In this document: positions 18,923 through 38,530 of the stretch, in pieces
Position numbering within the stretch: position 1 is the stretch's first letter
Layout of the letters: each line of letters begins with the position of its first letter
Origin: Paludibacteraceae bacterium
Lineage (GTDB): Bacteria; Bacteroidota; Bacteroidia; Bacteroidales; Paludibacteraceae
Assembly: GCA_024399535.1 (NCBI GenBank)
Contig: JAKSNU010000007.1
Coordinates: 1 to 44,146, forward strand
Length of the DNA stretch: 44,146 nucleotides
Direction of reading: 5' to 3'
Program-made: the position numbers and the translations under genes
The notes under the pieces: model-generated
What the model was told of the DNA's origin: nothing
What the model saw: the letters and a program-made list of their open reading frames with translations, nothing else
Database searches by the model: none

Positions 18923-18948
18923 ACAGAGAAAAGCTGTTATATTAAGCG

Positions 18949-18989
18949 AAAAAAAGGCACAATCGTATAAAAAGGTTGTGCTTTTTTTT
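18949..18989 (+). terminator. Intrinsic terminator of the ribosomal superoperon
   Basis: AAAAAAAGGCACAATC (18949-18964) pairs with GGTTGTGCTTTTTTTT (18974-18989), with G-U wobbles, around a 9-base loop. The right arm ends in an 8-T run. It lies 26 bases after the rplQ stop. Confidence 0.8.
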
Positions 18990-19233: not shown

Positions 19234-22200
19234 ATGCGAAGGTTTTTTGTGCTTATAGTTGGTTTACTCTTTTCTATTGCCATGTTTGGTGATAGATGGT
19301 CTAACTATTCTCCACTTCCAAGCAATGGAACCGAATTTTATCTAACCTATTTGTCTAATAATTCACAATCTTCAGGTGGCTCTCTATTTCTTGATATTTT
19401 TATGTCTTCTCCAGTCCCTTCGAATGTTTCTATATACGAGGGCTATTCGGGAGTGTTGATTGATTCTTTCACTTTTGTTGGTGACACTGTATGGAATCTT
19501 ACTAATCCATCTTTGGCATATCTCAACAACCCAGATATTGTTTCTGGTAAAAGTATTAAGGTTGTTTCCTCGTCTCCGTTGTCCCTTTTTATGGCAAATA
19601 GCACTACACTTGATGGTGATGCATCTTTTGTATTGCCAGCTTCCCTGCTTGGACGTGAGTATGTCGTTCAATCTTTTAGCAAGGAAAATTATGCAACCGA
19701 GTTTGCTGTTGTGGCGACAGAACCTGGCGTGACGAGTGTGACTATTGAATCGCCAATTGTTACAATGACCTCAAATGGGGCTCCTCGTGCTCCATATACT
19801 CCTTATGTGGTGTCGTTGAATCAAGGTCAAGTCTATTATGGAACATCGTATTCCCCTGAGGATCTTTCGGGTACACATATTTGTGCTGACCGTAATATTG
19901 CTGTATTTTCTGGAAACCAAAATGCGTTTTCCCGAAAAAAGACTGCTGGCACAAGTCAACTTTCTCATCAGTCTATGCCTTTGAAGTACTGGGGCAAGCG
20001 TTTCGCTCTTGGCAAAACTGCTGGGCAGAGTCACAATTATGTTGAACTAACCGCTGTTGATAGTTCAACTATAGTGTATCTCAATGGTGCTCCTGTCGAT
20101 ACTATTGATTCTTACGAGACTTCTATCATTGATTGGAACGATGTGGTTCAGACTATGTTCATTGAGACCAGTAAACCTGTGATTTGCTATCAGTATATGG
20201 TCAGTCAAGGCGATAATGCACAATTTGGTGCTCCTGCTATGGCATTGGTTTCGCCTCTTGAATTGGCATCTAACGAAATTCGGTTTATGACTTTTGGTGG
20301 GCATGATTCATCTTGCAGTTTGGTTTATCATGTCAATGTATTTGCTCCGACATCTTCCCTTTCCGACATGTTGCTTGATAGTGCTAATATTAGTAGTTAT
20401 TTCTCTCCAATGCTCGGATTGTCTGGTTATTCTTTTGCTCAGATAGCTGTATCTTCAGGCAGTCATGTCTTGAGCAATAATTCTGGACGGTTTGTCACTT
20501 TAATATATGGCGAGACTATGGACGAGTCTTGCAACGATTGGTCTTATGCTTATAATTCTGGTTCTGACTTACTTAATCTCAATGCGTATATGCTGATAGA
20601 TGGCGAACGTATTGACGAGTATTCTGTTTGCGAAAGTGCTGATGGAAAATGGCATGTTGATTTTCAATCTGTTATCAACGAGCGTTTTGATAGTGTTCGT
20701 TGGTATGATGTTTATAATGGCGAAACACGTTTGATAGGTAGCGATACTTTGTTCCAATACGCTTTTGACGATTCTCTAATGCACGATGTGATGATGGTCG
20801 TTTATCGTGAGGAACAAATCTGTCGGAATTTGGTTTCTGATACAGTGACAGCGCGTGTTTTTTGTGCCGAGACTTTTGATGTCTTTCGTGATGAGATTTT
20901 TGCTTGTTTCGGAGATACTATTTTCCTATTCAATGGTGATGATACTCTGCTTACTGATACTATGAGCACATACGTAACGTACCATTATCAAAAAAGATAC
21001 AATACATCAGAAGGTTGTGATAGTTTGGTGCACGAAACTTTATTTATTTCAAATCCTCAAGACGAACTTTTTGAGCACGAGATGTGTCAAGGTGATTCTT
21101 ACAGTTTCCATGGTAAATCTTACTATAATGCTGGACGTTATGTCGATACACTATACGAAAATGGATGTATGTATGAATCGGTCTTGGAACTTACAGTCCA
21201 TCCTCGCTACGATTATTATGATACTATCGAAATTTGTGATGTGTCTGTTCCTTATATATGGTCAATAGGTTCAGGCGAAAATTCATATGTGCTGTCTAAT
21301 TCTTGCGATACATCGAAAATGTATTCCTCTGTTTATGGTTGTGATAGTGTCTATCATCTCCATTTTATGGTGCATGACAGTTATTTCTATGACGACACAG
21401 TTGTTTTGTGTCAGTCGGGATTGCCTTATGTGTGGACTGGTCACAAATCTTTGCAGTTTGATTCTTCTGGCATTTATTTCGACTCTTGCAAGACTTCTTT
21501 TGGTTGCGACAGTATCTATCGCCTTTCGTTGGTAGTTTATGAATCTTTTTCTGACTACGATTACGATACAATCTGTTCTAATGAAACATATCGTTGGCAA
21601 GGCAACGAATATTCTGGACTTTCTGGTGGAGTTTACAATTTCCAAAAGCGTTACGTCTCTCGTGATGGTTGTGATAGTATATCCTATCTGCAACTTACTG
21701 TTTTTGACACTATTATTATTGAAACGGTTCGCAAAATATGTGAATATGATAGCATAATTTGGGATGGCGAAATTTATTCTGGCACTAAGTTCAATGGCAT
21801 TACTGACCATAGTTGTCATATTGGTGATACTATTTTCACTCATTCTTTCAGTCGGGTACGTACTGGATGCGATAGTATCCACCTCCTTCGTCTGACTGTC
21901 AGTCCTTCTTATGACAATTCGCATTACGATACTTTATGTGTTGGCGATTCTATCTTGATTGGGCGTCGCGGTTTTGTAAAATTCACCTTAGCAGGCGATT
22001 ACGACTATGTCGATTCTTTTGTGACCATTAGGGGTTGCGATAGTGTTGAGAAATTTTATGTACATGTAAATCCTATATATTCTTTCCATGAACAAGCGAC
22101 TGTCTGTGTAAATGAAAGTTATTCTTGGCGTGGCAAACTATACGAAAATTTGCGACCAGGGAAAGTGGAATTTACTGATTCTTTTTTAACTGACAATGGT

Positions 22201-25200
22201 TGTCGATGTGATAGTGTTTATTTCTTGTCTTTGACCGTTTTGGATACTGTTTCAGTCTATTTTTCGGAAAGTATTTGCGATGATGATAGTATTCTGTGGA
22301 AAGGAACTGTATATAAAGGTTCTCAATGTAAAGGTGGTTCTGATGGGGTAGTATTGCCTGTTGGAACTCACGATATTATCAATCGTTATACTTCCGAACG
22401 TACTGGTTGCGACAGTGTAGTTCACTTGTATCTATCCGTGTTGCCTAAATATGAATTTCATCGTTATGATACTACTTGTCAAGGTAGTGATTATCGGTTT
22501 AATTATTTTCCATTGATTCATTGTTCATCGATAGGCGATTATGATTACTATGATACCATTCCTAATCGCTATGGATGCGATAGTGTTGAAATACTCCATT
22601 TGCATGTCTTGCCGGTTTACTCTTTTGTGGATTCTCTCTTCCTTTGCGATGACAAATCCATTTCATGGCATGGTCAGTTCTTTAATGATATGTGGCCTGG
22701 AACATATGAGCATTTTGATTCTCTGAAAGCCATTGATGGATGCGATAGTGTTTACAAGTTGGTTTTGACTGTTGGTCGTCATTTCTTTAAATCTGAGGAA
22801 CTTTCGCTTTGTGCAAATTCATCATTGATGTGGCGCGGACGGGAGTTCAGTGGAGATGATTATTCAGTTGGTGACTATTTGATATATGACAGTCTGACGA
22901 CTCACGATGGTTGTGATAGTATCTACGAATTGTCTCTGCATGTTCATAATACTGATTATACTGACCTCGGTGATATTACTGTCTGTATGGGCGATTCTTT
23001 CAGACTTTGTACTAAGGTTTATTGGTGCGACGAACCTGGCACTTTCCATTATTGTGACACTATGCCGAACCGTTTTGGATGCGATAGTGTTGTCAAAGTG
23101 AATGTTATTGTTTATCCTACTTTCCTTTCTATTACAAGGGATACGATATGTTTTGGCGAGAATTATTCGTGGCGTGAACATTTCTATAATTCTCCTCAGG
23201 TTCCTGGGCTCGTCGAGGAGGATCGCTATATTGTCGGAGCAGGTTGTGACAGTGTTTATCGTTTGATGCTCACTGTTTTGCCAAGTTATTTCTTCCGTGA
23301 TGTTATTCATGTCTGCGAAGGCGATACAATCATTTGGCATGGGATGGAGTTGTCCTATAATCGTGATGGTATTTATGTCATAGACGATAAAATGATTACC
23401 AATTCAGGGTGTGATAGTATCTACGAACTTACACTTTTCGTTCATCCTAAATATTATATCAATGATGTGATGCATGTTTGTGAGGGCGATACTGTTCAAT
23501 ATCTTTCACATACCATTGATTATCCTGCTGGTCAGTATGTGCTTATTGACACATTATCAACTGTTTACGGTTGCGATAGTGTTGTTCAGATGATGGTTTA
23601 TGTTCATCCGTCTTATCATTTCTTGTCCGAGCCGTTATGGTGTTCTTCGTCAGGTGTTTTCAATTGGCGTGGTCGCAAAATCAATCAGTCTGGTGTCTAT
23701 TTTGACTCTCTGAAGACAGTCGGATGGGGTTGTGACAGTGTTTACGAATTGCGTATTGATATTCAACCTTCTTATTTCTTTGAGCGTTGGGATACTATTT
23801 GCGATAATAGTGGCGTTTATTTTCAAAATGAGTTCTTAAAGGATGAGGGTGACCATTATTTCAATTATCGAACAATAAATGGTTGTGATAGTGTTTATTG
23901 TCTGCATCTCAAAGTGAATCGTACTTATTGGAACGATATCTATGTTACTCTTTGTGGTGGCGATAGCATCTATTTTGCCGGTCGTTTCTTGAAAGATAGT
24001 GGTATTTATGGTGACACAACATATAGTGTTCATGGTTGCGATAGTGTTGATATTCTCCATCTTCGTGTCAATCCGTCCTACTATAGAGTTGTGATTGATA
24101 GTATTACGTGCAGTAATGATACTTTCTCGTTCAACGGCAGGAACTATACCAAGAGTGGTATTTATATAGATTCTATGAAGACCGAACTCGGTTGCGATAG
24201 TATTGTTGAACTTCGTTTGAATATGATTCCTGCCTATCGTTTCGAGACGGATACTGCTGTTTGCGATTTTAAGCCTTATGTTTGGCGTCATCGCAGTTTT
24301 ACTCAATCTGGTGTTTACTATGATTCTTTGAAGTCGAGCATCGGTTGTGATAGCGTTTATGTCCTCTATATCTCTTTTGTTGAGACACTTTACGACACTA
24401 TTTATCGTCACTCCTGCACTGGCGAGGCTTATCTTTTTGGCGGACGGCAACTGACCAAGTCTGGTATATATAACGATACCATATGTTCGCCTCGTGGCTT
24501 CGATTGTCGGGTTGTAACTCTTGTTTTGGATTTTGTTGATCCGAGTGTTTTTGCTTGGACTTCCGTGGCTGATGTTTGTGCTGATGACCTCTCTTTCACG
24601 ATTGACCATGTCTGTGGTGGTACACCTCCTCTCTCTTATAGCGTGTTGTTTACCGACGATGCTCACAATCAAGGCTTCCGTGATGTCATTGATGCTGTTT
24701 ATGATGGAAATATCGTTGTTGATATCCCTAATAGCGATAGTCATCAGTTCTATGTTCGTCCTGATAATTACGTAGTTACTGTTCGTTTGAATAATGGGAT
24801 ATGCGACCCTGCTGGAAGCGATTACCAGACCAATGTGCTCGTTAAATGGCCGAGCTGGGTGACCGAACAGAAGTGGCAGGATGTTGTTGCTGTTCTGAAT
24901 GATAAGAATAATGGTGGCTATACTTTCGACCTCTTTGAATGGTATGTCAATGGAAAACGTGTTGCCGAGACTCGTGGCTCTTATATCTATCTTCCTAATG
25001 TACTTGCTATCGGCGATGAGGTATATGTTAATCTCCGTCGCGAGGGCGAATCTTACACTATTTCTTCTTGTCCTCTGACTATAGTTGACCGTCTTCCACT
25101 TCAGGTATCTACTATTCCGTTTATGATTTATCCTTCCCATGTCCGTCGGACTGAGAATGTTACAATGCGAAGCGATGTCCCTGGTCATTATGTTCTTAGC

Positions 25201-25350
25201 GATTGTGCAGGGCACGTTTTGTCTGAAGGCGATTTTAATGATGCTGGCGAGATTGTGTTGCCTATTCCGTATGTGAGTGGTGTCTATATGGTCTCTTTCC
25301 GAACAGATGATGGCCGTTATATTGTCGAAAAGATTGTTGTTAATGAATGA
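19234..25350 (+). CDS. Giant secreted repeat protein 1 (IgGFc-binding-like domain, GCDS repeats, T9SS-type tail)
   Basis: A 2038-residue protein. Start ATG 19234 gives a signal peptide (MRRFFVLIVGLLFSIAMFG); the upstream in-frame TTG 19186 lacks support. Residues about 25-440 resemble the IgGFc-binding N-terminal domain: GTEFYLTYLS, then ICADRNIAVFSGNQ, then SIIDWNDVVQTMFIETSKPV. From about 594 to 1703 there are 21 repeats of roughly 55-66 residues, each ending GCDS(V/I)Y-x-L-x-L-x-V and carrying a second Cys (for example TICSNETYRW), which suggests one disulfide per repeat. A WPSWVTEQKWQDVV module lies near 1871. The last 80 residues (GHYVLSDCAGHVLSEGD... GVYMVSF) look like a T9SS type A sorting domain. 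Expected on the cell surface, probably adhesive (inference). First gene of the operon. Confidence 0.85.
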   Translation: MRRFFVLIVGLLFSIAMFGDRWSNYSPLPSNGTEFYLTYLSNNSQSSGGSLFLDIFMSSPVPSNVSIYEGYSGVLIDSFTFVGDTVWNLTNPSLAYLNNPDIVSGKSIKVVSSSPLSLFMANSTTLDGDASFVLPASLLGREYVVQSFSKENYATEFAVVATEPGVTSVTIESPIVTMTSNGAPRAPYTPYVVSLNQGQVYYGTSYSPEDLSGTHICADRNIAVFSGNQNAFSRKKTAGTSQLSHQSMPLKYWGKRFALGKTAGQSHNYVELTAVDSSTIVYLNGAPVDTIDSYETSIIDWNDVVQTMFIETSKPVICYQYMVSQGDNAQFGAPAMALVSPLELASNEIRFMTFGGHDSSCSLVYHVNVFAPTSSLSDMLLDSANISSYFSPMLGLSGYSFAQIAVSSGSHVLSNNSGRFVTLIYGETMDESCNDWSYAYNSGSDLLNLNAYMLIDGERIDEYSVCESADGKWHVDFQSVINERFDSVRWYDVYNGETRLIGSDTLFQYAFDDSLMHDVMMVVYREEQICRNLVSDTVTARVFCAETFDVFRDEIFACFGDTIFLFNGDDTLLTDTMSTYVTYHYQKRYNTSEGCDSLVHETLFISNPQDELFEHEMCQGDSYSFHGKSYYNAGRYVDTLYENGCMYESVLELTVHPRYDYYDTIEICDVSVPYIWSIGSGENSYVLSNSCDTSKMYSSVYGCDSVYHLHFMVHDSYFYDDTVVLCQSGLPYVWTGHKSLQFDSSGIYFDSCKTSFGCDSIYRLSLVVYESFSDYDYDTICSNETYRWQGNEYSGLSGGVYNFQKRYVSRDGCDSISYLQLTVFDTIIIETVRKICEYDSIIWDGEIYSGTKFNGITDHSCHIGDTIFTHSFSRVRTGCDSIHLLRLTVSPSYDNSHYDTLCVGDSILIGRRGFVKFTLAGDYDYVDSFVTIRGCDSVEKFYVHVNPIYSFHEQATVCVNESYSWRGKLYENLRPGKVEFTDSFLTDNGCRCDSVYFLSLTVLDTVSVYFSESICDDDSILWKGTVYKGSQCKGGSDGVVLPVGTHDIINRYTSERTGCDSVVHLYLSVLPKYEFHRYDTTCQGSDYRFNYFPLIHCSSIGDYDYYDTIPNRYGCDSVEILHLHVLPVYSFVDSLFLCDDKSISWHGQFFNDMWPGTYEHFDSLKAIDGCDSVYKLVLTVGRHFFKSEELSLCANSSLMWRGREFSGDDYSVGDYLIYDSLTTHDGCDSIYELSLHVHNTDYTDLGDITVCMGDSFRLCTKVYWCDEPGTFHYCDTMPNRFGCDSVVKVNVIVYPTFLSITRDTICFGENYSWREHFYNSPQVPGLVEEDRYIVGAGCDSVYRLMLTVLPSYFFRDVIHVCEGDTIIWHGMELSYNRDGIYVIDDKMITNSGCDSIYELTLFVHPKYYINDVMHVCEGDTVQYLSHTIDYPAGQYVLIDTLSTVYGCDSVVQMMVYVHPSYHFLSEPLWCSSSGVFNWRGRKINQSGVYFDSLKTVGWGCDSVYELRIDIQPSYFFERWDTICDNSGVYFQNEFLKDEGDHYFNYRTINGCDSVYCLHLKVNRTYWNDIYVTLCGGDSIYFAGRFLKDSGIYGDTTYSVHGCDSVDILHLRVNPSYYRVVIDSITCSNDTFSFNGRNYTKSGIYIDSMKTELGCDSIVELRLNMIPAYRFETDTAVCDFKPYVWRHRSFTQSGVYYDSLKSSIGCDSVYVLYISFVETLYDTIYRHSCTGEAYLFGGRQLTKSGIYNDTICSPRGFDCRVVTLVLDFVDPSVFAWTSVADVCADDLSFTIDHVCGGTPPLSYSVLFTDDAHNQGFRDVIDAVYDGNIVVDIPNSDSHQFYVRPDNYVVTVRLNNGICDPAGSDYQTNVLVKWPSWVTEQKWQDVVAVLNDKNNGGYTFDLFEWYVNGKRVAETRGSYIYLPNVLAIGDEVYVNLRREGESYTISSCPLTIVDRLPLQVSTIPFMIYPSHVRRTENVTMRSDVPGHYVLSDCAGHVLSEGDFNDAGEIVLPIPYVSGVYMVSFRTDDGRYIVEKIVVNE
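21550..22614 (+). repeat. Two ABC triads of GCDS repeats in giant protein 1
   Basis: Repeats fall into three subtypes in fixed order. A: ICSN-x3-W-x-G, ending LTVFDT. B: longer, with ICE-x-DSI-x-WDG, Y-x-G and RTGCDS. C: CVGDSI or CQGSDY, with GDYDY-x-D and GCDSVE. The order here is A-B-C-A-B-C over 1065 bases, about 177 residues per triad. The same triad occurs four times in giant protein 2. Confidence 0.75.
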
Positions 25351-25374
25351 TTTAAATAATACTATATATTGAAA

Positions 25375-26358
25375 ATGATACGAAAGACTTTATACATATT
25401 GTTATTGCTGTTTCTGTATATTGGTTCTGTTTTAGGGTCCGAGCCGTCTGATTTGGCTATCAATTCCAAAAAGAATGGCAAAAAGCCTGGTCTCACTGTT
25501 TGGGGCAAGAAACATCAATATGCCGAGCACTATATTTCTCTTTGGACTTCTGCGGGTTATAGTTGTTTCTTCCCTCAAGTTGCGAATTCTAAACTGAAAG
25601 GGCTTGTAGGTACTACTATAGGTGTTGGTTATGAGCGACTTGGTTATAATCGTGATTTTCTTTTCACTGCTGGTCTTGAAATGCAGTTTCTCTCTTCGTC
25701 CATGTCTATGGTCGGCTATAAATTTGACCAAACGATTGCCGATACCGAGGGCGATGAAACTTTGTGTCATTATGATATTCATGATTGGCAGGAGTATCAA
25801 TATGGACTTCAGGTTGGTATTCCACTTATGGTGGGTTATAAGCACAACCATTTCTATTTCCTTGTCGGTCCTAAGATGACTGTCGGGTTTTGGGGAGCTG
25901 GCGAAGGCAAGATGTCATACGTGACCTCTGCCACCTATCCTCGTTATATCGACGACTTCTACGACATGCAGAACCATTTCTATCATAATTATACTCGTAG
26001 CACTAAGGAGCCTATGGCCTATGGCTTTGGGGTCTCTGGTTGCTTCGAGATTGGTTACGAGATACTGAACCGTACCTTTGATGCTACCAGTCGTAAGGAG
26101 CGTTATCATTGGCGTAAAGATTATAAAGTGAAACTTTCGTTCTATGCAGAATATGGTGCATTGAATGTTAACAAGACTAAGGCACTTGGCGATATTGTCT
26201 GGTTCGAAAACGATAATGCCATTGGTCTTAATATCCGTCCGTATTATACTACCAATAATGCGCTTGGTGCAGCGATAAACCCTTTTTACGCAGGTGTTAA
26301 AGTGACTATTTTAGTCGGAGAATTTTGTAAAAACTGTCAGCGGAATCGTTCGAAATGA
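25375..26358 (+). CDS. Predicted outer-membrane beta-barrel protein
   Basis: A 327-residue protein. ATG 25375 is preferred over TTG 25369; it gives a clear signal peptide (MIRKTLYILLLLFLYIGSVLG). The mature part alternates aromatic/hydrophobic residues in strand-sized segments (HYISLWTSAGYSCFFPQ, TTIGVGYERLG, YQYGLQVGIPLMVGYKHNHF, FYFLVGPKMTVGFWG, VKLSFYAEYGAL, FYAGVKVTILVG), the pattern of a Bacteroidota outer-membrane beta-barrel. It ends in a basic CKNC-containing tail. I see no PorP/SprF signature. It lies between the two giant genes: 24 bases after the first, and its stop overlaps the second start (ATGA). Context suggests a dedicated surface partner; function unknown. Confidence 0.7.
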   Translation: MIRKTLYILLLLFLYIGSVLGSEPSDLAINSKKNGKKPGLTVWGKKHQYAEHYISLWTSAGYSCFFPQVANSKLKGLVGTTIGVGYERLGYNRDFLFTAGLEMQFLSSSMSMVGYKFDQTIADTEGDETLCHYDIHDWQEYQYGLQVGIPLMVGYKHNHFYFLVGPKMTVGFWGAGEGKMSYVTSATYPRYIDDFYDMQNHFYHNYTRSTKEPMAYGFGVSGCFEIGYEILNRTFDATSRKERYHWRKDYKVKLSFYAEYGALNVNKTKALGDIVWFENDNAIGLNIRPYYTTNNALGAAINPFYAGVKVTILVGEFCKNCQRNRSK

Positions 26359-29300
26359 AACGTATATTGACGTTTATATTAGGATTACTTGTATGTGTCG
26401 GTCTTTGGGCTGACCCTATTCCTATTAGCTTGGGTGTGGATGATAATGGCTGTCTCAATGTTGGTCGTTTGTCGTCTGATGGAACCGAGTTCTATCTCTC
26501 GTATATGTCCTGTAGTGCTCAAGCCTCTGGTATTCTACATCTTAATCTTTTTATGGCAACATCAACGCCTACCATGGTTCGCATCATGCGTGGCAATGGT
26601 GGTACGCCTATTGATTCTTTTTATCTGCAGTCTGACACTATTTGGCAGCTTCAGAACACAAATCTTGCTTATCTCAATACGCCTGATCAAGTTTCCGACA
26701 AGACGCTTCTTGTTCGTTCTGATTCTCCGATATCTCTATTCATGTCCACGAGTGTTGGGCAGGATGGTGCAGCATCGATTGTTTTGCCATCCATGATTTT
26801 GGACAAGGAGTATGTCCTTCAGACCTACCATAAGGAGCGCTATAATTCCGAATTTTGTGTCATTGCGGTTGCTCCAGGTTCGACTCATGTTGTTATTACA
26901 CCTTCTGTTCCTCTTGCCGGTAACTCAACTTCTGCTGTTGCCCGTCCTGCCGGGATGCCTTACACTATTACGCTCGGTCAAGGCGATGTTTATTACGAAA
27001 TTTCTGATGCCTCTAATAGCCTTTCTGGTACTACTATTTGTGCTGACCAGCCTGTCGCTGTCTTTAATGGCGACCAAGAAGCTCGTTCCGACGACCGTCT
27101 CGGTACCAGCCTTGCTATCCACGAGGCTGCTCCTATTCGTCTTCTTGGTTCTCATTTCGGACTTGCCAAAACTAATGGTCAGGAACATAATATAGTGCAA
27201 ATCACTGCTATCGAGGATACTACTTATGTCTATCGCAATGGTTCTGTCATTGATACACTGATGGCTTTCGAAACCAGTATAATCGACTGGAACGACGATG
27301 ATGTCTCCACTTTTGTCGAGACTTCTAAGCGTGCTGTCTGTTTCCAATATCTTGTCAGTTGGGGCGATAATGCTCGCAATGGTACTCCTGAGATGTATAT
27401 GATTGCCCCTCTTGAAATGCTTTCCGACACTGCTTCTTTCACAACCTACGACGTCTTCAGCGGAACAACGAGTATGCTGACCTATTATGTTAATATTGTA
27501 GCTCCCGACACTGCTGTTGCTGGCATTATGATTGACAATATCAATGTGAGTTCCAATTTCCAATCTCTTATAGGTACTACTGGCTATTCCTATGCACGTA
27601 TCGCTGTATCTGATGGACCTCATACTATTGTCGGCACAAATGGTGGTTTTGTTGCAACTGCATACGGCATTTCCTCATCAGCTGCTTATGCTTTTGCCAT
27701 TGGTCTCAATGGTGCCACTAATAATGCCCACATGTATGTTGATTTCAATGAGATAAAAAATTATCTTGTCTGTGAATCTCCTAAAAATCAATGGAATATT
27801 ATTTTATCTGATTTAATCAATACTGAGTTTGATAGCATTGTCTGGTACGACTCTTATCAAGGTAATGTCTCTCGTATTGGCATTGGTGATACCTTATTTC
27901 ATACGTTCCGCAATCAACCACACGACCATGTGGTCTATATGCATGTCAACCGTAAGTCGATTATTTGTGATATCCCTGTTGTGGATGTCTATTGTGTGAA
28001 TGTTTATTGTGCTGATATGTACGATGTTACTTACGATACTACGTTCGCATGCGTGGGCGATACACTACTACTTTTTGGTGGTGTTGATACCGTTGTGACT
28101 GATACTCTTCCTATTTACGAGACGCTCTCCTATACTCGTCATTTTACCACCTATTATGGTTGCGATAGTATTTTGACCGAGTTGGTCTTTGTCTCTGACC
28201 CTCAGCCTATTGATACTTTTGCTGTAATCTGTAGCGGCGAGCGTTGCTTTTTTGGTGGTAACTATTATACCGAGTCTGGAGTCTATTACGACACTCGTCA
28301 GGACCATGGCTGCGATTATATTGTCACACTTCATCTTACTGTCAATCCTGTCTATTCATTCTTTGATACTGTGTCGCTTTGCGATACCGAACTTCCGTTC
28401 ATTTGGCAGCGGGGTAGTGCTGATGCAAATCCTGATGCGATTTGGCACTCTGTTGATACCACTAAGGTCTATCATACTGTGAATGGGTGCGATAGCATTT
28501 ATCATCTACACTTTACCGTTTGGGATAGCTATCTTTTCAAGGATAGTATCGACATTTGCGATACCGACACTCCTTTCATATGGAACGGTCATTCTATGAG
28601 CTTCTCTGAATCAGGAGTTTACTATGATTCTCTTGCCTCTATTCATGGCTGCGATAGTGCCCATCGTCTCAGTCTGACTATTCATCCTTCCTATCGTTTC
28701 GATGAATACGACACTATTTGTTCCAACGTTTCCTACACCTGGCGAGGTTCCACTTATCCTAAAATGACTGGTGGCGAATACGAGAAACAGCTCCTTCTCT
28801 CCACTGTCAATGGCTGCGATAGTCTCTATGTTCTCCATCTTCTTGTGAATGACACTATTAACCTATTGACTAATAGATTTATGTCTGATGTTGATACTGT
28901 AGTGTGGGATGGTATCACCATTGGCGGTGAAAAATATGTCGGATTGGTTGATACCACTCTTTCACTTGGTGTTCATACTCTTACGCATCATTATGTCTCG
29001 TCAGTCACTGGTTGCGATAGTTTTATGACTCTTCGTCTGATTATTCTCGAATCTTTTGATATTACAATCCTTGATACTGTATGTCAGCATGATGGCTATA
29101 TTTTTGGTGGTCGTTCTGTGAGCACTGATTCTGTCGGAACATTCTTTGTTACTGATTCTCTGAAGACTGTTGCAGGCTACGATAGTATTGTGACTCTCAT
29201 TCTGACTGTCAATCCTATTTATTATTTCGAGGATTTTGCATCTATTTGTTCTAACGAAACCTTCATTTGGCATGGCTTCCAGTTCTCTTCTCTCTCTGCT

Positions 29301-32300
29301 GGCACATATTACAAGTATGATAGTCTCCGTTCCTATTATGGTTGCGATAGTGTCTATCTTCTCTCTCTTACTGTCAATGATACAGTGTCTTACGAGCGGA
29401 ATGTCGTGATTTGCGATGTCGATACCTTCCATTGGGATGGTCTGGTTTATGGTGGTCCTAAGCATTCTGGTCTGGTTGATAGTGTTATCTCTGTCGGCAA
29501 TTGGCGGCTTTGTCATCATTATCAGAAACTTTCGACTGGTTGTGATAGTCTTCTTTGGCTTAATGTGCAGGTCAATCCTACCTATCTACTCGAACTGAAC
29601 GAGAGTGTCTGTCAGGGCGATGTCTATATTTTTGGCGGACGCACTCTTCCGACTGACTCTGTGGGAACTTTCTATTATGTCGATTCTCTGCATTCTATTC
29701 ATGGTTGCGATAGTGTCGTGACTCTCACTCTGACGGTCAACCCTGTCTATCTGTTTGAATCTGAATTTGCTACGTGTGTCAATGTTCCATATATATGGCG
29801 CACTCATACTTATTCTAATCTATCTCCAGGTCTTCACAATTTCTACGATACTCTGTATTCAGTTTCTGGTTGTGATAGTATTTACCATCTCGCCCTGACG
29901 ATAAATGATACTGTTTCTGTTGTCCGTAATGTAATAATGTGTGATGTAGATACTATTGTATGGGATGGCGTTGTATGTGCTGGATCTAAATACAAAGGGG
30001 TTTCTGATATTGTCTTACCTCTTGGACGTCAAGTCATTACTCATCGTTATTCTCAAACCGGAAGTGGTTGCGATAGTGTTCTTCGTCTGTTTGTCGAAGT
30101 TCGTCCGACCTATGCTTTCATGATTGACGATTCTATCTGTGAGGGTGACGACTATTGGATTGGTCCGAACCGTTATCATTTCGATGAAGCTGGTATTTAC
30201 AATATTGCCGATACCCTTGTCTCTACTGGCGGTTGCGATAGTGTGATAGGTCTTCGTCTGATTGTAAATCCTGTTTATGAAATAGTTGAACAATATTCTA
30301 TCTGTTCCAACTCTGTCTGGGATTGGCATGGCATTCATTTCGACCATCAGCAGTCTGGCAGTTATACTTTCTACGATTCTCTCCTCTCTGCCTCTGGCTG
30401 CGATAGTGTTTATCGTCTTGAACTCAATGTCTTTGACACAATTGTGGTTAGTCGTGTCGCTGATATTTGTGCGACCGATACTATCCGTTGGGATGGTGTC
30501 GTCTATGCTGGCGAATCCCATTGGGGTCGTTCTGATGTGGTGCTGCCTGTTGGTCATTATTCTTATGTGCATCGCTATACTTCTTCTCTCACTGGGTGCG
30601 ATAGTCTGATGGTTCTTGATTTGACTATTCATCCTTATTATTTCAACGAACACTATACTTCTGTGTGTCAGGGTTCTATCTACTCTTTTAGCACTCTTTC
30701 GCCTATTCATTGTAATTCTGTTGGCGATTTTGTTTATGTTGATTCTCTCACCTCGGTATATGGTTGCGATAGTGTCGAGTTGCTTCATTTGCATGTCAAT
30801 CCTGTCTATCTGCGTGAATTTGCGATGGAGATGTGTGCCGACGATACCATAGCTTGGCGTTCTCATACATATCATAGCCTCTCTGCCGGTGTCCACATTT
30901 TCTGGGATTCTCTCACCACTTCTGCTGGCTGCGATAGCCTTTACAAGCTCATCCTCACCGTCCATCCTGTTTATCATTTTATTGACTGCGACACCATTTG
31001 TGGCAGTGGTATTTACCATTGGCGCAGTCATTATTATACTGGCTATATGTATGCTGTCGGTGGTCTCGAGCCTGGCGAGCATTCTTTCCGTGATACGTAT
31101 CGTAGCATTTATGGTTGCGATAGTATTTATGAGCTTCGTCTTATGGTTCTTCGTTCCGATTTCATCTCTCTGCCTGCCGATACTGTATGTCAGGGTGATG
31201 TCTATCGGTTCTGTGGTCGCGACATCTCTTGCAATACTGTCGGCTCTTTCATTCTTCGTGACACTCTTTCTAACTATTTCGGTTGCGATAGTATTGTTGT
31301 CGGGCGCCTTGTGGTTCATAACACCTATCTTTTCGAGGAATCTCTGACTGTTTGTAGCAGCGACACTGTCTTCTGGCGAGGTCGTTTGATTACTGCTCTC
31401 CCTGCTGGTCTGAATGTCATCGACGATTCGCTGCTCTCCGTTTATGGTTGTGATAGTATTTATAGGCTCAATCTTTTTGTAAAGCAGAGCTATCTTTTTG
31501 AATACGAATATACTATGTGCGACTACGACACCATGCTCTGGCGCGACCATCATATCGACCGTCTTCCTATTGGCGACTATTTCTATTATGATTCTCTTCT
31601 CACTTACTCTGGTTGCGATAGTGTCTATGCCATGACTCTCCATGTTTGTCCATCCTATCGTGTGCGCGACACAATATATATGTGTTCCAACGAGATTCGC
31701 TATTACCATAATCATCGTCTTATTTATAATGTTGCTGGTCGTTATACTTTAGTCGATACTCTCTCCACTATCCATGGTTGTGATAGTATTGTCGAGGTCA
31801 GTATCTATGTCAGTCAGTCTTATCATTTCACTCAGCACGAGTTGGTTTGTGGTGTGAATTCTTACGAATGGCGAGGCAGGACTATCTATTTTTCAGGTAA
31901 TTATTACGACACTCTTCGCACTGTTAATGGTTGCGACAGTATCTATCAGCTTGATGTCGTGTTCCAGGAACGCTATCGTTTTGATGCCTATCGTACTATT
32001 TGTTCGGGCGATAGCTTCTATTTCCGTGGAATGTATGTTAAGGAGGCTGGCGACCATTCTTTCACTGTCGGCTCAATTGATGGTTGCGACAGCGAATATG
32101 TCCTTCATCTCCGTGTCCTTCCTAAATTCTATCGTGAATATAATGTATCTATTTGTCTTGGCGAAACTTATACATTTGCTGGTCGCATTCTTCGTAAAAG
32201 TGGAGTCTATTGGGATTCTCTGATGACTCGTGCCGGTTGCGATAGTGTCACTAAACTCACACTCAATGTTATACCAGCATTCCATCATATCACCTACCAC

Positions 32301-33554
32301 GAGGGTCAGTGCACCGACGATACTATCTGGTTCCGTGGCAAGTCTTATACCAAGAGTGGTATCTATTACGATTCGTTAGTAAATTCCGTCGGTTGTGATA
32401 GTGTTTATGAACTCCGGTTGAAGATGAATCCGAAATACCATTTCGTCAAGGACACCATCATTTGCGACTATTCCTCTTTCCGATGGCGAGGCAAGCCGGT
32501 ACGCTCTTCTGGTGTCTATTGGGATTCGCTCGAAACTAAGATTGGTTGCGACAGTATCTATGAGCTCCGGCTCACAATCATGCCTACTCGTCGCGATACT
32601 CTTTACGATACTATTTGTCTTGGCGAGAATTATACTTTCCATGGTACGATTATTCGCAATGCTGGGGTCTATGCCGATACTGTCTGCTATGGCGATGACG
32701 AGGATTGCACGATTACCACTCTCTTCCTTACCACTGTCGAGCCTACTTATTTCAATCGCGTTTCGGTGTCCGACATCTGTGCCGACGATACAATAATGAC
32801 TATCGGGCATACTTGGCGTGGTGCTACTCCTCTGAAATTCAGTGTTCTCTTCGGCGATAGTGCCCGTAAACAGGGCTTCCGGAATATCGAGGACGAGGAC
32901 TATAAAGGTGTCATCGAAGTCCCTGTGCCTAATTATCCTGACAAATATAAGTTCATTCGTCCAGACCATTATTCATTGACTCTCCGTCTTTGGAATGGCA
33001 TTTGCGACGAGACTATGAGCGAGTTGCGTTACGACTTCCTTGTCCGCTGGCCTTCGTGGATGACCGAGCAGAAATGGCAGGACGTTGTAGCTGTCGTAAA
33101 CGACAAATTCAATGGCGGTTATACTTTCGATGATTTCGATTGGTATGTCAACGGACGAAATATTCCTTCCGAGCGTAATTCGTATATCTATCTCCCTGAG
33201 CGACTTGCGATAGGCGACGAAGTATATGTCTGCCTTACCCGTACTGGCGAGAGTTATTGTATTCCTACTTGTCCTATTATCGTTGCCGACCGTTCTGCTC
33301 TTCAGGTGTCTGACGTTCCTTTCACTCTTTTCCCTTCCCAACTTCCTGCCTCGGGAATTGCCCGTATCGAATCCTCTGTCTCAGGTCATTATCTCCTCAT
33401 TGATTGTATGGGTCATATCCTTGCCGAATCTGATATGGCTGCTGGAGCGCGTATCGACCTCCAGATGCCTTCTGTGCCTGGTGTCTATATGGTCTATTTC
33501 TACGATACTGCCGGTCGTAGCAAGGTTATTAAAGTCTTGATTAATAATAATTAA
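26355..33554 (+). CDS. Giant secreted repeat protein 2 (IgGFc-binding-like domain, GCDS repeats, T9SS-type tail)
   Basis: A 2399-residue paralogue of giant protein 1 with the same layout. Signal peptide MKRILTFILGLLVCVGLWA; IgGFc-binding-like domain to about residue 440 (DGTEFYLSYMS, TICADQPVAVFNGDQ, TSIIDWNDDDVSTFVETSK); 27 repeats from about 601 to 2063; the WPSWMTEQKWQDVV module near 2232; T9SS-type tail from about 2320 (GHYLLIDCMGHILAESD, PGVYMVYFYD). The start overlaps the barrel-gene stop by 4 bases, so translation is likely coupled. One repeat has GYDS instead of GCDS (codon TAC at 29178), losing a conserved Cys. Codons are richer in C than in giant protein 1. Surface adhesin or matrix role is inferred. 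Confidence 0.85.
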   Translation: MKRILTFILGLLVCVGLWADPIPISLGVDDNGCLNVGRLSSDGTEFYLSYMSCSAQASGILHLNLFMATSTPTMVRIMRGNGGTPIDSFYLQSDTIWQLQNTNLAYLNTPDQVSDKTLLVRSDSPISLFMSTSVGQDGAASIVLPSMILDKEYVLQTYHKERYNSEFCVIAVAPGSTHVVITPSVPLAGNSTSAVARPAGMPYTITLGQGDVYYEISDASNSLSGTTICADQPVAVFNGDQEARSDDRLGTSLAIHEAAPIRLLGSHFGLAKTNGQEHNIVQITAIEDTTYVYRNGSVIDTLMAFETSIIDWNDDDVSTFVETSKRAVCFQYLVSWGDNARNGTPEMYMIAPLEMLSDTASFTTYDVFSGTTSMLTYYVNIVAPDTAVAGIMIDNINVSSNFQSLIGTTGYSYARIAVSDGPHTIVGTNGGFVATAYGISSSAAYAFAIGLNGATNNAHMYVDFNEIKNYLVCESPKNQWNIILSDLINTEFDSIVWYDSYQGNVSRIGIGDTLFHTFRNQPHDHVVYMHVNRKSIICDIPVVDVYCVNVYCADMYDVTYDTTFACVGDTLLLFGGVDTVVTDTLPIYETLSYTRHFTTYYGCDSILTELVFVSDPQPIDTFAVICSGERCFFGGNYYTESGVYYDTRQDHGCDYIVTLHLTVNPVYSFFDTVSLCDTELPFIWQRGSADANPDAIWHSVDTTKVYHTVNGCDSIYHLHFTVWDSYLFKDSIDICDTDTPFIWNGHSMSFSESGVYYDSLASIHGCDSAHRLSLTIHPSYRFDEYDTICSNVSYTWRGSTYPKMTGGEYEKQLLLSTVNGCDSLYVLHLLVNDTINLLTNRFMSDVDTVVWDGITIGGEKYVGLVDTTLSLGVHTLTHHYVSSVTGCDSFMTLRLIILESFDITILDTVCQHDGYIFGGRSVSTDSVGTFFVTDSLKTVAGYDSIVTLILTVNPIYYFEDFASICSNETFIWHGFQFSSLSAGTYYKYDSLRSYYGCDSVYLLSLTVNDTVSYERNVVICDVDTFHWDGLVYGGPKHSGLVDSVISVGNWRLCHHYQKLSTGCDSLLWLNVQVNPTYLLELNESVCQGDVYIFGGRTLPTDSVGTFYYVDSLHSIHGCDSVVTLTLTVNPVYLFESEFATCVNVPYIWRTHTYSNLSPGLHNFYDTLYSVSGCDSIYHLALTINDTVSVVRNVIMCDVDTIVWDGVVCAGSKYKGVSDIVLPLGRQVITHRYSQTGSGCDSVLRLFVEVRPTYAFMIDDSICEGDDYWIGPNRYHFDEAGIYNIADTLVSTGGCDSVIGLRLIVNPVYEIVEQYSICSNSVWDWHGIHFDHQQSGSYTFYDSLLSASGCDSVYRLELNVFDTIVVSRVADICATDTIRWDGVVYAGESHWGRSDVVLPVGHYSYVHRYTSSLTGCDSLMVLDLTIHPYYFNEHYTSVCQGSIYSFSTLSPIHCNSVGDFVYVDSLTSVYGCDSVELLHLHVNPVYLREFAMEMCADDTIAWRSHTYHSLSAGVHIFWDSLTTSAGCDSLYKLILTVHPVYHFIDCDTICGSGIYHWRSHYYTGYMYAVGGLEPGEHSFRDTYRSIYGCDSIYELRLMVLRSDFISLPADTVCQGDVYRFCGRDISCNTVGSFILRDTLSNYFGCDSIVVGRLVVHNTYLFEESLTVCSSDTVFWRGRLITALPAGLNVIDDSLLSVYGCDSIYRLNLFVKQSYLFEYEYTMCDYDTMLWRDHHIDRLPIGDYFYYDSLLTYSGCDSVYAMTLHVCPSYRVRDTIYMCSNEIRYYHNHRLIYNVAGRYTLVDTLSTIHGCDSIVEVSIYVSQSYHFTQHELVCGVNSYEWRGRTIYFSGNYYDTLRTVNGCDSIYQLDVVFQERYRFDAYRTICSGDSFYFRGMYVKEAGDHSFTVGSIDGCDSEYVLHLRVLPKFYREYNVSICLGETYTFAGRILRKSGVYWDSLMTRAGCDSVTKLTLNVIPAFHHITYHEGQCTDDTIWFRGKSYTKSGIYYDSLVNSVGCDSVYELRLKMNPKYHFVKDTIICDYSSFRWRGKPVRSSGVYWDSLETKIGCDSIYELRLTIMPTRRDTLYDTICLGENYTFHGTIIRNAGVYADTVCYGDDEDCTITTLFLTTVEPTYFNRVSVSDICADDTIMTIGHTWRGATPLKFSVLFGDSARKQGFRNIEDEDYKGVIEVPVPNYPDKYKFIRPDHYSLTLRLWNGICDETMSELRYDFLVRWPSWMTEQKWQDVVAVVNDKFNGGYTFDDFDWYVNGRNIPSERNSYIYLPERLAIGDEVYVCLTRTGESYCIPTCPIIVADRSALQVSDVPFTLFPSQLPASGIARIESSVSGHYLLIDCMGHILAESDMAAGARIDLQMPSVPGVYMVYFYDTAGRSKVIKVLINNN
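28689..30802 (+). repeat. Four ABC triads of GCDS repeats in giant protein 2
   Basis: Twelve consecutive repeats in A-B-C order four times over 2114 bases, about 176 residues per triad. B units carry CDVDT-x2-WDG and a longer loop (Y-x-G-x-K-x2-G). C units carry SVCQGDVYIFGGR, TDSVGTF and DSL. The flanking repeats (4 before, 11 after) align one-to-one with those of giant protein 1, so triad copy number is the main difference. Confidence 0.75.
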
Positions 33555-33566
33555 AACTATATCATT

Positions 33567-34715
33567 ATGAAGAAATTTTTACTTTTTATTCTTTCTATGG
33601 TGGCGGTTTGTTCCGCTTGTAAACGTACTTCTGATATCAAAATTGAACCCGAAGGTCCGATTGTGCTTATCGACTCGACTGGTTGGCTTTGGGCTGATTC
33701 TCTTCGTGAGAACCTCACCTCGGCTGCTGCTACTGCCGAAATGTCCGAGCCTATGAAGCTCTATTTCTATGGATGGGGCGACGACGAGGATACAACTTTC
33801 CAGATTCAGATGCCTACTGGCTCTTTTGGCAAAGTCATTCTTGAATATACAATGTGTGGTTGGAACAAAGGTCCTGCCGATTGGGATATGACCACCGAGA
33901 TTCGCATAAAGAACAACAGCACGGGCGAATGGCACGAACTCCAGCGTTGCTTCACTCCGTATGGTGGCAGCTTCTCTGCCAGCTGGAACAAAAAATTCTA
34001 TATGGATGTAACCCACATGTTGCCTCTTCTCATGCAGCAGGGACCTACCGAGTTCAAGGTCTTTTATTGCGGTTGGGATGCCACCGAGACCAAGGCTCAC
34101 GCTTTCAGCATGAAGTTCTATTTCTTTGAGGGTGCAAATCGTTATGGTGCGAATATACTCTCCTGCCAGAAGGTTTACGACTCTTTCCTCAATGGCAATA
34201 ATGGTTATCGTGCTTGGGCTTATGGTGTCGAATCTGACCCTATCGAGGCTTCTGAGCGTCTCGGCGAGCGCCACATAGTCCTTCCTGAGGGCACCAAGCG
34301 TGCGCTGCTCCGTGTCTGCATCACTGGTCATGGTCAGGAGAAATCTACTGTCGATAATTATAGTGGCTATTTCCCAGGTCGCAAAAAGAAAGCTGTCAAC
34401 CCTGCCGAGTTCGACGAGAACTGGTATAAAATCAAGATTAATGGCGAAATTATGCCTCTCGTAGGCCACATTTGGGAACTCAATGGCAATGGCAAAAACT
34501 ATAAGCAGGCTGGCACTTACCAGTACAATCGTGCCGGTTGGGGTCCTGGCAAACCAGGCAATACTCAATATTGGGTTATCAACTATATCCCTGAAAATCG
34601 TGAACTTACTATCGACCTCGACCTTGATGAGTATGTTTCTGACCGTACTAAGCCTAATGATGCATACGTTGCCAACTATTATGTGATGGCTGACATATTT
34701 GCTCTGGATAAATAA
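33567..34715 (+). CDS. PNGase F-like lipoprotein
   Basis: A 382-residue protein with a probable lipoprotein signal (MKKFLLFILSMVAVCSAC, lipidated at Cys18). Both halves resemble the two jelly-roll domains of Flavobacterium-type peptide-N-glycosidase F, which cleaves N-glycans from asparagine. ADWDMTTEIRIKN-STGEW (104-121) aligns with the PNGase F segment holding catalytic Asp60 (here Asp107). AEFDENW (280-286) aligns with the Glu206 region (here Glu281). RAGWGPG (322-328) matches the conserved RAGWCPG. In the TEFKVFYCGW segment (161-170) the position of PNGase F Glu118 is Cys168. It lies 12 bases after giant gene 2 and 22 before ileS. Activity is uncertain because of the Glu118 change. Confidence 0.72.
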   Translation: MKKFLLFILSMVAVCSACKRTSDIKIEPEGPIVLIDSTGWLWADSLRENLTSAAATAEMSEPMKLYFYGWGDDEDTTFQIQMPTGSFGKVILEYTMCGWNKGPADWDMTTEIRIKNNSTGEWHELQRCFTPYGGSFSASWNKKFYMDVTHMLPLLMQQGPTEFKVFYCGWDATETKAHAFSMKFYFFEGANRYGANILSCQKVYDSFLNGNNGYRAWAYGVESDPIEASERLGERHIVLPEGTKRALLRVCITGHGQEKSTVDNYSGYFPGRKKKAVNPAEFDENWYKIKINGEIMPLVGHIWELNGNGKNYKQAGTYQYNRAGWGPGKPGNTQYWVINYIPENRELTIDLDLDEYVSDRTKPNDAYVANYYVMADIFALDK

Positions 34716-34737
34716 TAACGAAACTTTTTTTCGATAT

Positions 34738-37700
34738 ATGAAGAAATTCAATGAATATAAATCCCTTGACCTCTCTGCTCTCAATCGTGAGGTCTTGGCT
34801 GCTTGGGACAGCGAGGATTTGTTCCATCGCAGTGTTGACGAGCGCGAGGGGTGCCCCTCTTTCGTATTTTACGAGGGACCTCCTTCTGCTAACGGAATGC
34901 CTGGTATTCACCATGTTATGGCGCGTACCATAAAGGATACTTTCTGCCGTTATAAAACAATGTGTGGTTATCAGGTTCGTCGTAAGGCTGGTTGGGACAC
35001 TCACGGCCTTCCTGTCGAACTTGGAGTCGAGAAGCGTCTCGGCATCACCAAGGAGGATATCGGTTCCAAAGTCTCGGTCGATGAATACAATGCCGCTTGC
35101 CGTTCCGACGTGATGAAATATACCAAGGAGTGGACCGACCTTACCCACCGCATGGGCTATTGGGTTGACCTTGAGCATCCTTACATAACCTACGACAATA
35201 AATATATCGAGACTCTCTGGTGGCTTCTCAAACAGCTCTACAACAAGGGGTTGCTCTATAAAGGCTATACGATTCAGCCTTACTCCCCTGCTGCCGGCAC
35301 TGGACTCTCTACTCACGAGCTCAACCAGCCTGGCTGCTATCGCGATGTGAAGGACACCACCTGCACAGCCCAGTTCCGTGTCAAAGGTGCACTCAAGGCA
35401 TTCCCTGACCTAAAGGGCGATACGTTCATACTCGCTTGGACCACAACGCCTTGGACTCTCCCTTCCAACACTGCCCTTTGCGTCGGTCCTAAAATCGAAT
35501 ACGTCGTTGTCGATTCTTTCAATCCATACACTGGTATCCGTGCCAACTATGTGATTGGCAAACCGTTGTTGAACAACTATTTCAACCCTAAGGGTGCTGA
35601 ACTTTCGATGGACGACTATCGTCCGGGCGACAAGATTGTGCCTTACCGCATTCTCGGCGAATGTATGGGCCCTGACCTTGTCGGTACTGAATATCATCAA
35701 CTTATACCTTGGGTCAACCCTGGCGAAGGTGCTTTCCGTGTCATCCCTGGCGACTATGTTACGACCGATGATGGTACTGGTATTGTCCATATCGCTCCAA
35801 CTTTTGGTGCCGACGATGCTTTTGTAGCTAAGAAGGCTGGCGTTCCCGGACTTGTCATGACTACAGCCCGTGGCGAGCATCGCCCTATGGTCGATTTCGC
35901 TGGCAAGTTCTTTACAATCGACGACCTCGACCCTGAGTTCGTAAGATGCAACGTCGATGTCGCTGAATATTCCAAATGGGCGGGACGTTTTGTCAAGAAC
36001 GCTTTCGACCCTGCTTTGACCGACGATGACGAGACTCTCGATGTCTCTATCTGTCTCGATCTCAAGGCTACTAATCGTGTCTTCAAGATTGAAAAACATG
36101 TACATAACTATCCTCACTGCTGGCGTACCGACAAACCGGTTCTCTATTATCCTCTCGACAGCTGGTTCATCCGTACCACTGCCTGTCGCGACGAGATGAT
36201 GCGTCTCAACGAGACCATCAACTGGAAACCTCAATCCACTGGTACTGGCCGTTTTGGCAAGTGGCTTGAGAATCTTCAGGACTGGAACCTCAGTCGTAGC
36301 CGCTATTGGGGTACTCCGCTCCCTATCTGGCGTTCCGAGGACGGTGAGGAGAAATGTATCGGCTCGTGTGAGGAACTTATGGCGGAGATCGACAAATCCA
36401 TTAAGGCTGGTTTCATGACTTCTAACCCATGGCCTCGCTTCAAGGTTGGCGATATGAGTGATGCCAACTACGACCCTTCGGTCATCGACCTCCATCGTCC
36501 TTATGTTGACGGCATAATCCTTGTCTCCGACTCTGGCAAACCTATGCGTCGCGAGCTTGACCTCATTGATGTCTGGTTCGACTCTGGCTCAATGCCTTAT
36601 GCGCAGTGCCACTATCCTTTCGAGAACAAGGAGGCAGTCGATTCCGGAAGCGTCTTCCCTGCTGATTTCATCTCTGAGGGCGTTGACCAGACTCGTGGCT
36701 GGTTCTTCACGCTCCATGCTATTGGTACAATGGTCTTTGGTTCAGTCGCTTACCGCAATGTTATCTCTAATGGTCTTGTGCTTGACAAGTTCGGCGAGAA
36801 GATGAGCAAACGTAAAGGCAACACCGTCGATCCTTTCCAGACGATTGATAAATTCGGTTCCGACCCTCTCCGTTGGTATATGATGACCAACTCGTCGCCA
36901 TGGGAGAACCTCAAGTTCGATGTTGAGGGTGTTGACGAAGTCCGCCGTAAATTCTTCGGCACATTATATAATACATACTCCTTCTTTGCGCTCTATGCCA
37001 ATGTCGATGGCTTCTCGGCTGATGCTCCTGAGGTTGAGGTCAGTCGTCGTCCCGAGATTGACCGTTGGATTCTCTCCCTCCTCAACTCGCTTGTCCGCGA
37101 TTGCCGTGAGTTCTACGACAACTACGAGCCTACCCGTGCTGGACGTGCCATACAGGATTTCGTCGGCGAGAACCTTTCCAACTGGTATGTCCGCCTCAAC
37201 CGTAAACGCTATTGGGGTGGCGAAATGAATGATGATAAACTCTCTGCATATCAGACGCTATACACCTGTCTCTTGACTGTTTCGCATCTCATGGCACCTA
37301 TTGCGCCATTCTTTGCCGACCGTCTATATCGCGACCTCACCCGTGCTTCCGAATCTGTCCATCTCGCCTCCTTCCCTAAGGTCAACTCGGCTCTCATCGA
37401 CCGTAACCTTGAGGAGTGTATGCAGCTCGCACAGCAGTCGTCGTCTATGATACTTGCCCTTCGTCGCAAGGCTGAGAAGAAAGTGCGTCAGCCTCTTGCC
37501 AAGGTTGTCATCCCTGTCCACGACCGCAAGGTGAAAGAGCAGTTGCTCTATATAGCCGACCTCGTTCGTGGCGAGGTGAATGTCAAAGAGCTCCTTATTG
37601 TCGATGCTGCCGACTCCGAAATACGTCTTGTCAAGAAGATTAAGCCTAACTTCAAGGTTCTCGGCAAGAAGTTCGGCAAGCAGATGAAGGAGATAGCTGC

Positions 37701-38151: not shown

Positions 38152-38156
38152 AACTA

Positions 38157-38195
38157 TTTGGGCGAAAATCAATTGGTTTTCGCCCAAATTTTTTT
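38157..38195 (+). terminator. Intrinsic terminator after ileS
   Basis: A 12-bp perfect stem (TTTGGGCGAAAA at 38157-38168, complement at 38177-38188), an 8-base loop and a 7-T run, starting 6 bases after the ileS stop. A very strong rho-independent terminator that ends the giant-protein/ileS operon. Confidence 0.92.
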
Positions 38196-38265
38196 CCCTC
38201 ACCTACACATACATTATCGTGAGATTGGTTATGTCGCACCTTCAGCGTTTATTTTGAACACCATA

Positions 38266-38380: not shown

Positions 38381-38442
38381 GATTTTGTATAATACTGATA
38401 TATAGCCAATTATTCATAATGTGTTTTTTCTTGATATTTCAC

Positions 38443-38472: not shown

Positions 38473-38530
38473 CAAACTGAATGGTACTTGATGAAGAATG
38501 TATAATCGTAATCAGTGAACTTATCTTTAT

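Follow-up and report, generated by a model that had tools for sequence, protein, structure and literature searches.

The type IX secretion system (T9SS) is described as handling cargo that mostly falls into two classes, type A proteins served by the general carrier PorV and type B proteins held on the surface by dedicated PorP/SprF carriers (PMC12618676, PMC12635249). Type A substrates that have used PorV are then released or joined to lipopolysaccharide (LPS) (PMC12635249), and for type B cargo in Flavobacterium johnsoniae two fates are described, movement and a presumed fixation by a PorE-like protein (PMC12618676). The F. johnsoniae proteins SprF and PorG carry a twin cysteine (CxC) in the C-terminal tail that is disulfide-bonded to Cys343 of GldK, a cysteine reported to be invariant across GldK/PorK; the SprF twin cysteine is dispensable for export and required for sustained movement of the adhesin SprB (PMC12635249). 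In Porphyromonas gingivalis, PorP-PorE holds the protein PG1035 (PMC9143113). Here we describe a run of genes in a 44,146-nucleotide stretch of a Paludibacteraceae genome (contig JAKSNU010000007.1 of assembly GCA_024399535.1; hereafter the window) that resembles SprB-SprF, in that a giant repetitive T9SS adhesin has a barrel gene directly downstream. It departs from that system in both partners: SprB has a type B C-terminal domain (CTD) whereas the giants here have type A tails, and the barrel falls outside the PorP/SprF models PF11751 and TIGR03519. From sequence comparison, and with the chances for and against about evenly poised, we propose that this barrel represents a separate class of dedicated carrier or anchor for type A giant adhesins, and that the window copy is disulfide-coupled to PorK.

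The two giants are paralogues, as a first-pass annotation made from the letters of the window had recognised, with identities of 45% in the heads, 43% in the CTDs and 55% in a conserved domain of about 200 residues just before the sorting tail, for which we coin the name MID. Both have a signal-like N-terminus (judged by eye), and a search of their N-terminal domains with PF17517 (IgGFc_binding), the family named in that annotation, placed both far above the cut-off (Table 1). It had also counted 21 and 27 repeats; our repeat model (E<1e-3) finds 22 and 28, and the two counts agree on a difference of six. The first part of the giant 1 array alternates between repeats of about 55, 66-69 and 56 residues, which may form a three-repeat super-unit, and the six extra repeats of giant 2 have the size of two such units. 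The T9SS-type tail is present, as claimed, and weak: against TIGR04183 (cut-off 23), giant 1 scores 19.9 bits over its whole length, 25.0 in a search of the genome and 25.1 when only the tail is used, and the giant 2 tail is caught only by the CTD model built here. The copies of both giants in the sister genome G004 are 82% identical and differ in length by at most 2 residues, and, given the ratios of non-synonymous to synonymous substitution rates (dN/dS) in Table 1, the giants and the barrel are under purifying selection. Part of the giant 1 repeats and the PF17517 head found nothing in the PDB at E<=1. Against Pfam, the window MID had no match, and eight families were each matched by one MID member, none below an E-value of 0.013; the C-terminal part of MID resembles immunoglobulin-like domains in the PDB, the best being the phage tail protein 9c2d (1.9e-8).

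The part of the first-pass annotation that proved most valuable concerns the barrel, which was said to stand relative to its giant as SprF stands to SprB and yet not to be PorP/SprF, and both statements are borne out. As candidates for a PorP/SprF assignment, PF11751 matches only another gene of the same genome, the PorP on contig C18, and TIGR03519 is matched by 0 of 29 members of the barrel family (E<=1). PorP/SprF proteins are described as 14-stranded and FadL-type (PMC9143113), whereas 6 of the 29 members here match OMP_b-brl_2; eight weakly match the general barrel model NF049866 (best 1.8e-6). No PorV or PorQ match appeared among the NCBIfam hits of the family, nor did a PorG model at E<=1, the presence of such a model in the library being unconfirmed, and the barrel profile gave a single meaningless hit in the PDB (0.72).

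PorG, with which the family may also be compared, is a predicted 8-stranded barrel whose C-terminal twin cysteine is bonded to GldK; it is reported to be essential to the T9SS and to be conserved among the Bacteroidota that have this system (PMC12635249). We searched 61 genomes, namely the window's own genome (G000), 8 of its genus, 28 of its family and 24 of its order, and found PF17517 in 19, the MID profile in at least 36 and the barrel profile in 34. Because the barrel family was not found (E<=0.001) in the other 27, of which 25 have PorK over the cut-off, it is not PorG as such; it also differs from this general T9SS part in being multi-copy and cargo-linked, the separation being drawn from distribution and linkage. 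A wider draw of 395 genomes across the phylum contained at least 13 with a barrel at E<=1e-15, the window's own included, which may be an undercount since five candidates per genome were scored; 11 of the other 12 belong to one genus.

The linkage between barrel and giant recurs in these relatives. Among 78 distinct barrel open reading frames (ORFs) we kept the 67 with E<1e-20, dropping 11 weaker ones, and looked for neighbours in the DNA surrounding the stronger barrels. A same-strand MID, CTD or PF17517 gene lies within 400 bases of 48 of these 67 barrels, in 19 genomes; it stands upstream of the barrel in 41 of the 48, with a gap of at most 88 bases in 40 of these 41. Five of the remaining barrels lie at the end of a stretch and 14 lack such a neighbour, and a looser pairing rule gives 40 of 71, with 150 MID places used. 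By the models built here, MID is found in 47 of the 48 partner genes (37 full), a CTD in 41 and a PF17517-type head in only 9; 13 of the 58 distinct MID proteins read have such a head, and seven headless ones searched against Pfam gave one match, PKD_4, under the cut-off. As only 9 partners have the head and 47 have MID, the sequences indicate that the conserved unit is a MID-CTD protein with a barrel, and that the PF17517 head is not part of it. The expectation of a neighbourhood conserved in relatives thus holds for a MID-CTD T9SS protein beside a barrel, and fails for the four-gene cassette that the first-pass annotation had drawn, in which a PNGase F-like lipoprotein was the fourth member. 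CTD typing of 57 of the 58 MID proteins assigned 53 to type A TIGR04183 (E<=0.1), 10 of which also match a type C model, and none to type B TIGR04131 at the same threshold.

The barrels end in one of two ways. A twin cysteine terminates 35 of the 67 (20 CxC and 15 CxxC), an OmpA domain 24, and 8 have neither; the two tails never occur together, so that the motif is present in 35 of the 43 barrels without OmpA and in 0 of the 24 with it. The 11 weaker barrels left out (E>=1e-20) comprise seven with OmpA, four with neither and none with a twin cysteine. Pfam confirmed OmpA in 3 of 3 long forms scanned, with barrel and OmpA on one polypeptide, which, together with the type A CTDs, distinguishes these systems from PorP-PorE-PG1035; a carboxypeptidase-regulatory-like domain was seen, under its cut-off, in 2 of the 3. 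As controls, a twin cysteine falls in the last 45 residues of 11 of 367 other ORFs from the same stretches and in 0 of 44 PorP proteins (only copies adjoining porK, taken in 44 of the 61 genomes). With another filter (barrels without OmpA, ORFs of at least 200 aa, weaker members included) the motif is found in 32 of 47 barrels. On a tree of the barrel portion, from which the tails had been trimmed, the twin-cysteine label changes 7 times (at least 5 forced by well-supported branches) and the OmpA label 7 times (at least 6 forced); a twin-cysteine barrel sits inside an OmpA group (L249), for example, and an OmpA barrel inside a twin-cysteine group (L235). The tree indicates that the tails have been switched repeatedly.

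The machinery to which such tails could attach is encoded in the window's own genome, where porP-porK-porL-porM-porN are present, each over its cut-off; two OmpA-domain proteins follow porN directly (contig C18, L290 8412-11063). An alignment of PorK from 44 genomes has a cysteine at GCFMANFKP in 44 of 44 and a second cysteine in 36, placed 53 residues before the first in the window's own protein, a spacing that fits a correspondence of the two with GldK Cys343 and Cys285, which are 58 apart. GldJ-model matches occur in 61 of 61 genomes, some of them PorK itself, and lie over the cut-off in 12.

In the mechanism we propose, the giant would exit through SprA as a type A substrate and its MID, with or without the CTD, would dock on the barrel's outer face and remain there, so that the adhesin would be held even after PorU had removed the CTD. 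Like SprF and PorG with GldK, twin-cysteine barrels, the window's included, would form a disulfide bond with PorK through its invariant cysteine and so couple the adhesin to the PorK/N ring or track that the motor drives. OmpA-tailed barrels would instead tether their adhesin to peptidoglycan, in the manner of PorP-PorE. One barrel would probably serve both giants in the window, and the lipoprotein and ileS would be neighbours and not parts. Docking, the disulfide and movement are steps that we infer from what the sequences show, namely MID-bearing giants with type A tails beside a barrel that is not PorP/SprF, with two mutually exclusive tails. Extended to the whole family, the proposal describes a T9SS carrier class outside PorP/SprF that would take type A giants through a docking domain adjacent to the CTD, and whose inner tail would have been swapped more than once between a cysteine hook on the moving PorK/GldK and an OmpA clamp on the wall; this broader form we advance tentatively, leaning somewhat against it. 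A comparable case is PorZ-PorQ, in which a type A CTD is kept and bound to its own barrel (PMC10202324); unlike the carrier proposed here, that pair is part of the attachment complex and not an adhesin anchor, and the available text of the report mentions no C-tail attachment.

Docking through MID is also consistent with the way in which barrels and partners have diverged. For 37 of the 48 flanked barrels, those whose partner has a full MID, each partner being used once, barrel and MID distances correlate with r 0.744, a value equalled in 0 of 2000 shuffles (mean near 0 when unrestricted). Shuffles within genomes had a mean of 0.345, and those within genome and tail class a mean of 0.431, with 0 of 2000 as high in either case. 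Barrel and CTD distances give r 0.645, equalled in 0 of 2000 shuffles; when shuffling was confined to one genome and one tail class, 3 of 2000 reached this value.

A number of observations weigh against the proposal, some touching the pairing of giant and barrel and others the link to the motor. With regard to pairing, the co-divergence can be explained by linked inheritance without contact, the 14 barrels without a MID, CTD or PF17517 neighbour stand unpaired, the giant 2 tail is outside the type A matches listed for the genome, and the known use of PorV by type A substrates may leave no need for a dedicated barrel. The MID places also far outnumber the barrels in two genomes (at least 23 against 2 in G001 and at least 32 against 2 in G006), and pairing is therefore not one to one. 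These many MID places without an adjacent barrel, the type A assignment of nearly all typed CTDs and the weak NF049866 matches would suit ordinary type A secretion, in which the giants leave by way of PorV and are attached to LPS by PorU, the barrel being co-transcribed for another, PorG-like or porin-like, task. We regard this explanation as unlikely, because barrel adjacency recurs in 48 of 67 cases and barrels co-diverge with their partners even within a genome, and identity with PorG as such is at odds with the failure to find the family in genomes that have PorK.

In G001 and G006, 35 of the 55 MID places were read, all on contigs without a listed barrel, and 34 of the 35 were nearest by BLAST to a tandem pair of G006 that stands beside a twin-cysteine barrel, split evenly between the first and the second gene of that pair (17 each), with G006's own copies, which were among the targets, being favoured. 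Tandem MID pairs of about 1030 and 1150 aa occupy 15 of 20 stretches read in these genomes (L176, L305-L324), the tandem position being kept in the best hits. It is possible that many cassettes share one carrier in G001 and G006; F. johnsoniae has an orphan shuttle that is used by three substrates (PMC12618676).

With regard to the motor, the points against our proposal are that 8 of the 67 barrels have neither tail; that relatedness among the barrels makes the Fisher test of tail exclusion (p of 1e-11) indicative only; that several long branches of the tree were flagged as unsure by the tree tool; that the window motif is CxxC (the C-terminus reads CKNCQRNRSK), whereas SprF and F. johnsoniae PorG have CxC; and that the genome's own GldJ homologue (contig C43, L291) scores 282 bits against a cut-off of 458, which leaves movement, unlike attachment, unsure. 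CxxC spacing is common in metal and redox sites, and CKNC could accordingly be an internal disulfide or metal site in a barrel that serves as a docking site only, with static adhesins. This carrier without a track, which we consider rather improbable, would agree with the weak GldJ homologue and with the proposal that gliding was lost in most commensals (PMC12635249). It accounts less readily for a tail that repeatedly trades places with an OmpA wall anchor and never coexists with it, as would suit two inner attachments, or for a twin cysteine of the tail type of SprF and PorG; the cysteine number and spacing of PorG tails are described as variable (PMC12635249).

The first-pass annotation had further read the four genes together as a glycoprotein-binding and glycan-processing surface system. 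Its identification of the lipoprotein as a PNGase F homologue is upheld by a profile of 8 relatives, which finds PNGase F (1PGS) at 1.3e-20 and aligns with it over both domains, the window protein alone matching the Pfam PNGase F models weakly (E 0.015). The position of PNGase F E118, which we take to be an active-site residue as well, is Cys or Gly in the family, whereas D60 and E206 align with D107 and E281 of the lipoprotein, both invariant in 8 of 8. D60 and E206 are named as the PNGase F active site (PMC12753239). Of the 9 genomes of the genus, 8 have the gene at full length, four of them beside ileS and the other four among other genes, and it adjoins giants in only two (G000 and its sister G004), for which reason the four-gene cassette was rejected as a conserved unit and the glycan-processing reading is weak; a PNGase F-like relative in G003 (L188 3607-4785) has no lipobox cysteine near its start. 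That the giants bind host glycoprotein while the lipoprotein removes N-glycans would draw on genuine PF17517 heads and on a genuine PNGase F homology with two invariant active-site positions, but given the rarity of the adjacency and the substituted E118 position we hold it to be very improbable. The bacterial PF17517 domain may bind mucin or the Fc part of IgG, a suggestion taken from the family name, and we found no ligand evidence for this bacterial domain in the literature searched. We prefer to regard the lipoprotein as a genus-level gene in its own right. Of the earlier interpretation as a whole, the giants with PF17517 heads, the barrel that is not SprF and the PNGase F homologue have stood, and the four genes as one conserved system have not.

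The window is contig 67 of a 93-contig genome of 1.63 Mb that is 80% complete. ORF coordinates confirm the tight spacing of the four genes, at gaps of 24 bases (giant 1 to barrel), -4 (barrel to giant 2) and 12 (giant 2 to lipoprotein); the run does not end at 34715, since ileS begins 22 bases further on. Upstream, rplQ and giant 1 are 311 bases apart, and near the rplQ end of this interval stands a stem followed by a T run; its loop exceeds the limits of our terminator scan, which does not list it. The scan of positions 18800-38700 listed no terminator-like site in the gaps from giant 1 through ileS, and its longest stem is the one 3' of ileS; the total of 18 sites is not above chance (shuffles 16.0, sd 4.0). 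Judging from the spacing, with short gaps and no listed terminator between the genes, a single transcript from giant 1 to ileS is possible. Matches to the Bacteroidota promoter motif number 5 in the window (0.99 expected), none of them upstream of giant 1.

Table 1. Features of the gene run and its borders, in window coordinates
Feature	Position	Strand	Basis or remark
Stem-loop with T run, terminator-like, after rplQ	18957..18989	+	read from sequence; loop of 13
Giant adhesin 1, 2038 aa	19234..25350	+	ORF; dN/dS 0.119 vs G004
PF17517 IgGFc_binding head, giant 1	19618..20511	+	153.9-159.1 bits, cut-off 25.6
Array of 22 repeats, giant 1, GCDS type, mostly two cysteines each	20881..24504	+	repeat hidden Markov model (HMM)
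MID domain, giant 1, penultimate ~200 aa, conserved	24469..25080	+	profile built here
T9SS type A sorting tail, giant 1	25126..25344	+	TIGR04183, cut-off 23
Outer-membrane barrel, 327 aa, candidate dedicated carrier/anchor	25375..26358	+	ORF, family profile; dN/dS 0.066
Conserved barrel stretch TYPRYIDDFYDMQNHF, candidate outer docking loop	25933..25980	+	family alignment
Twin-cysteine C-tail CKNC of the barrel, residues 318-321	26326..26337	+	family alignment
Giant adhesin 2, 2399 aa	26355..33554	+	ORF; dN/dS 0.120 vs G004
PF17517 head, giant 2	26772..27668	+	143.7-148.4 bits, cut-off 25.6
Array of 28 repeats, giant 2, type as in giant 1	27987..32684	+	repeat HMM
MID domain, giant 2	32670..33281	+	profile built here
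T9SS sorting tail, giant 2	33327..33542	+	CTD model built here
PNGase F-like lipoprotein, 382 aa; within the run, outside the conserved module	33567..34715	+	profile vs PDB
ileS, isoleucyl-tRNA synthetase	34738..38151	+	22 bases 3' of lipoprotein
Terminator-like site after ileS	38156..38189	+	15 pairs, then TTTTTT

G004 keeps the order rplQ-giant-barrel-giant-lipoprotein-ileS, and 80 stretches surrounding ileS in relatives, many of them truncated by contig ends, gave 0 matches to the PF17517-head, barrel, MID, CTD and lipoprotein models. Among named genomes, the closest ileS sequences (77-78%) come from Paludibacteraceae and Candidatus Aphodosoma from animal guts. Beyond the ileS terminator lies a tandem repeat (33-base unit, 3.5 copies, 38266-38380), followed by an AAA_14/DUF4143 gene, and a large Fn3 T9SS protein on the minus strand (40656-44144) with a type A tail (24.3 bits) runs off the contig.

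We found no description of such a pairing of barrel and type A giant in the literature searched, most subscription journals being outside the search. If our proposal is true, PorV and PorP/SprF would be joined by another route, a cargo-linked barrel family that pairs with type A giants and shows both inner attachment modes. Two inner fates are described for type B carriers, SprF among them, and the barrel family would reproduce both within one gene. Gut commensals, for most of which a loss of gliding is proposed, may then have motor-linked adhesins, and under the broader form of the proposal uncultured gut Paludibacteraceae would carry motor-driven giant adhesins, some of them (G001 and G006) a repertoire of tandem pairs sharing one carrier.

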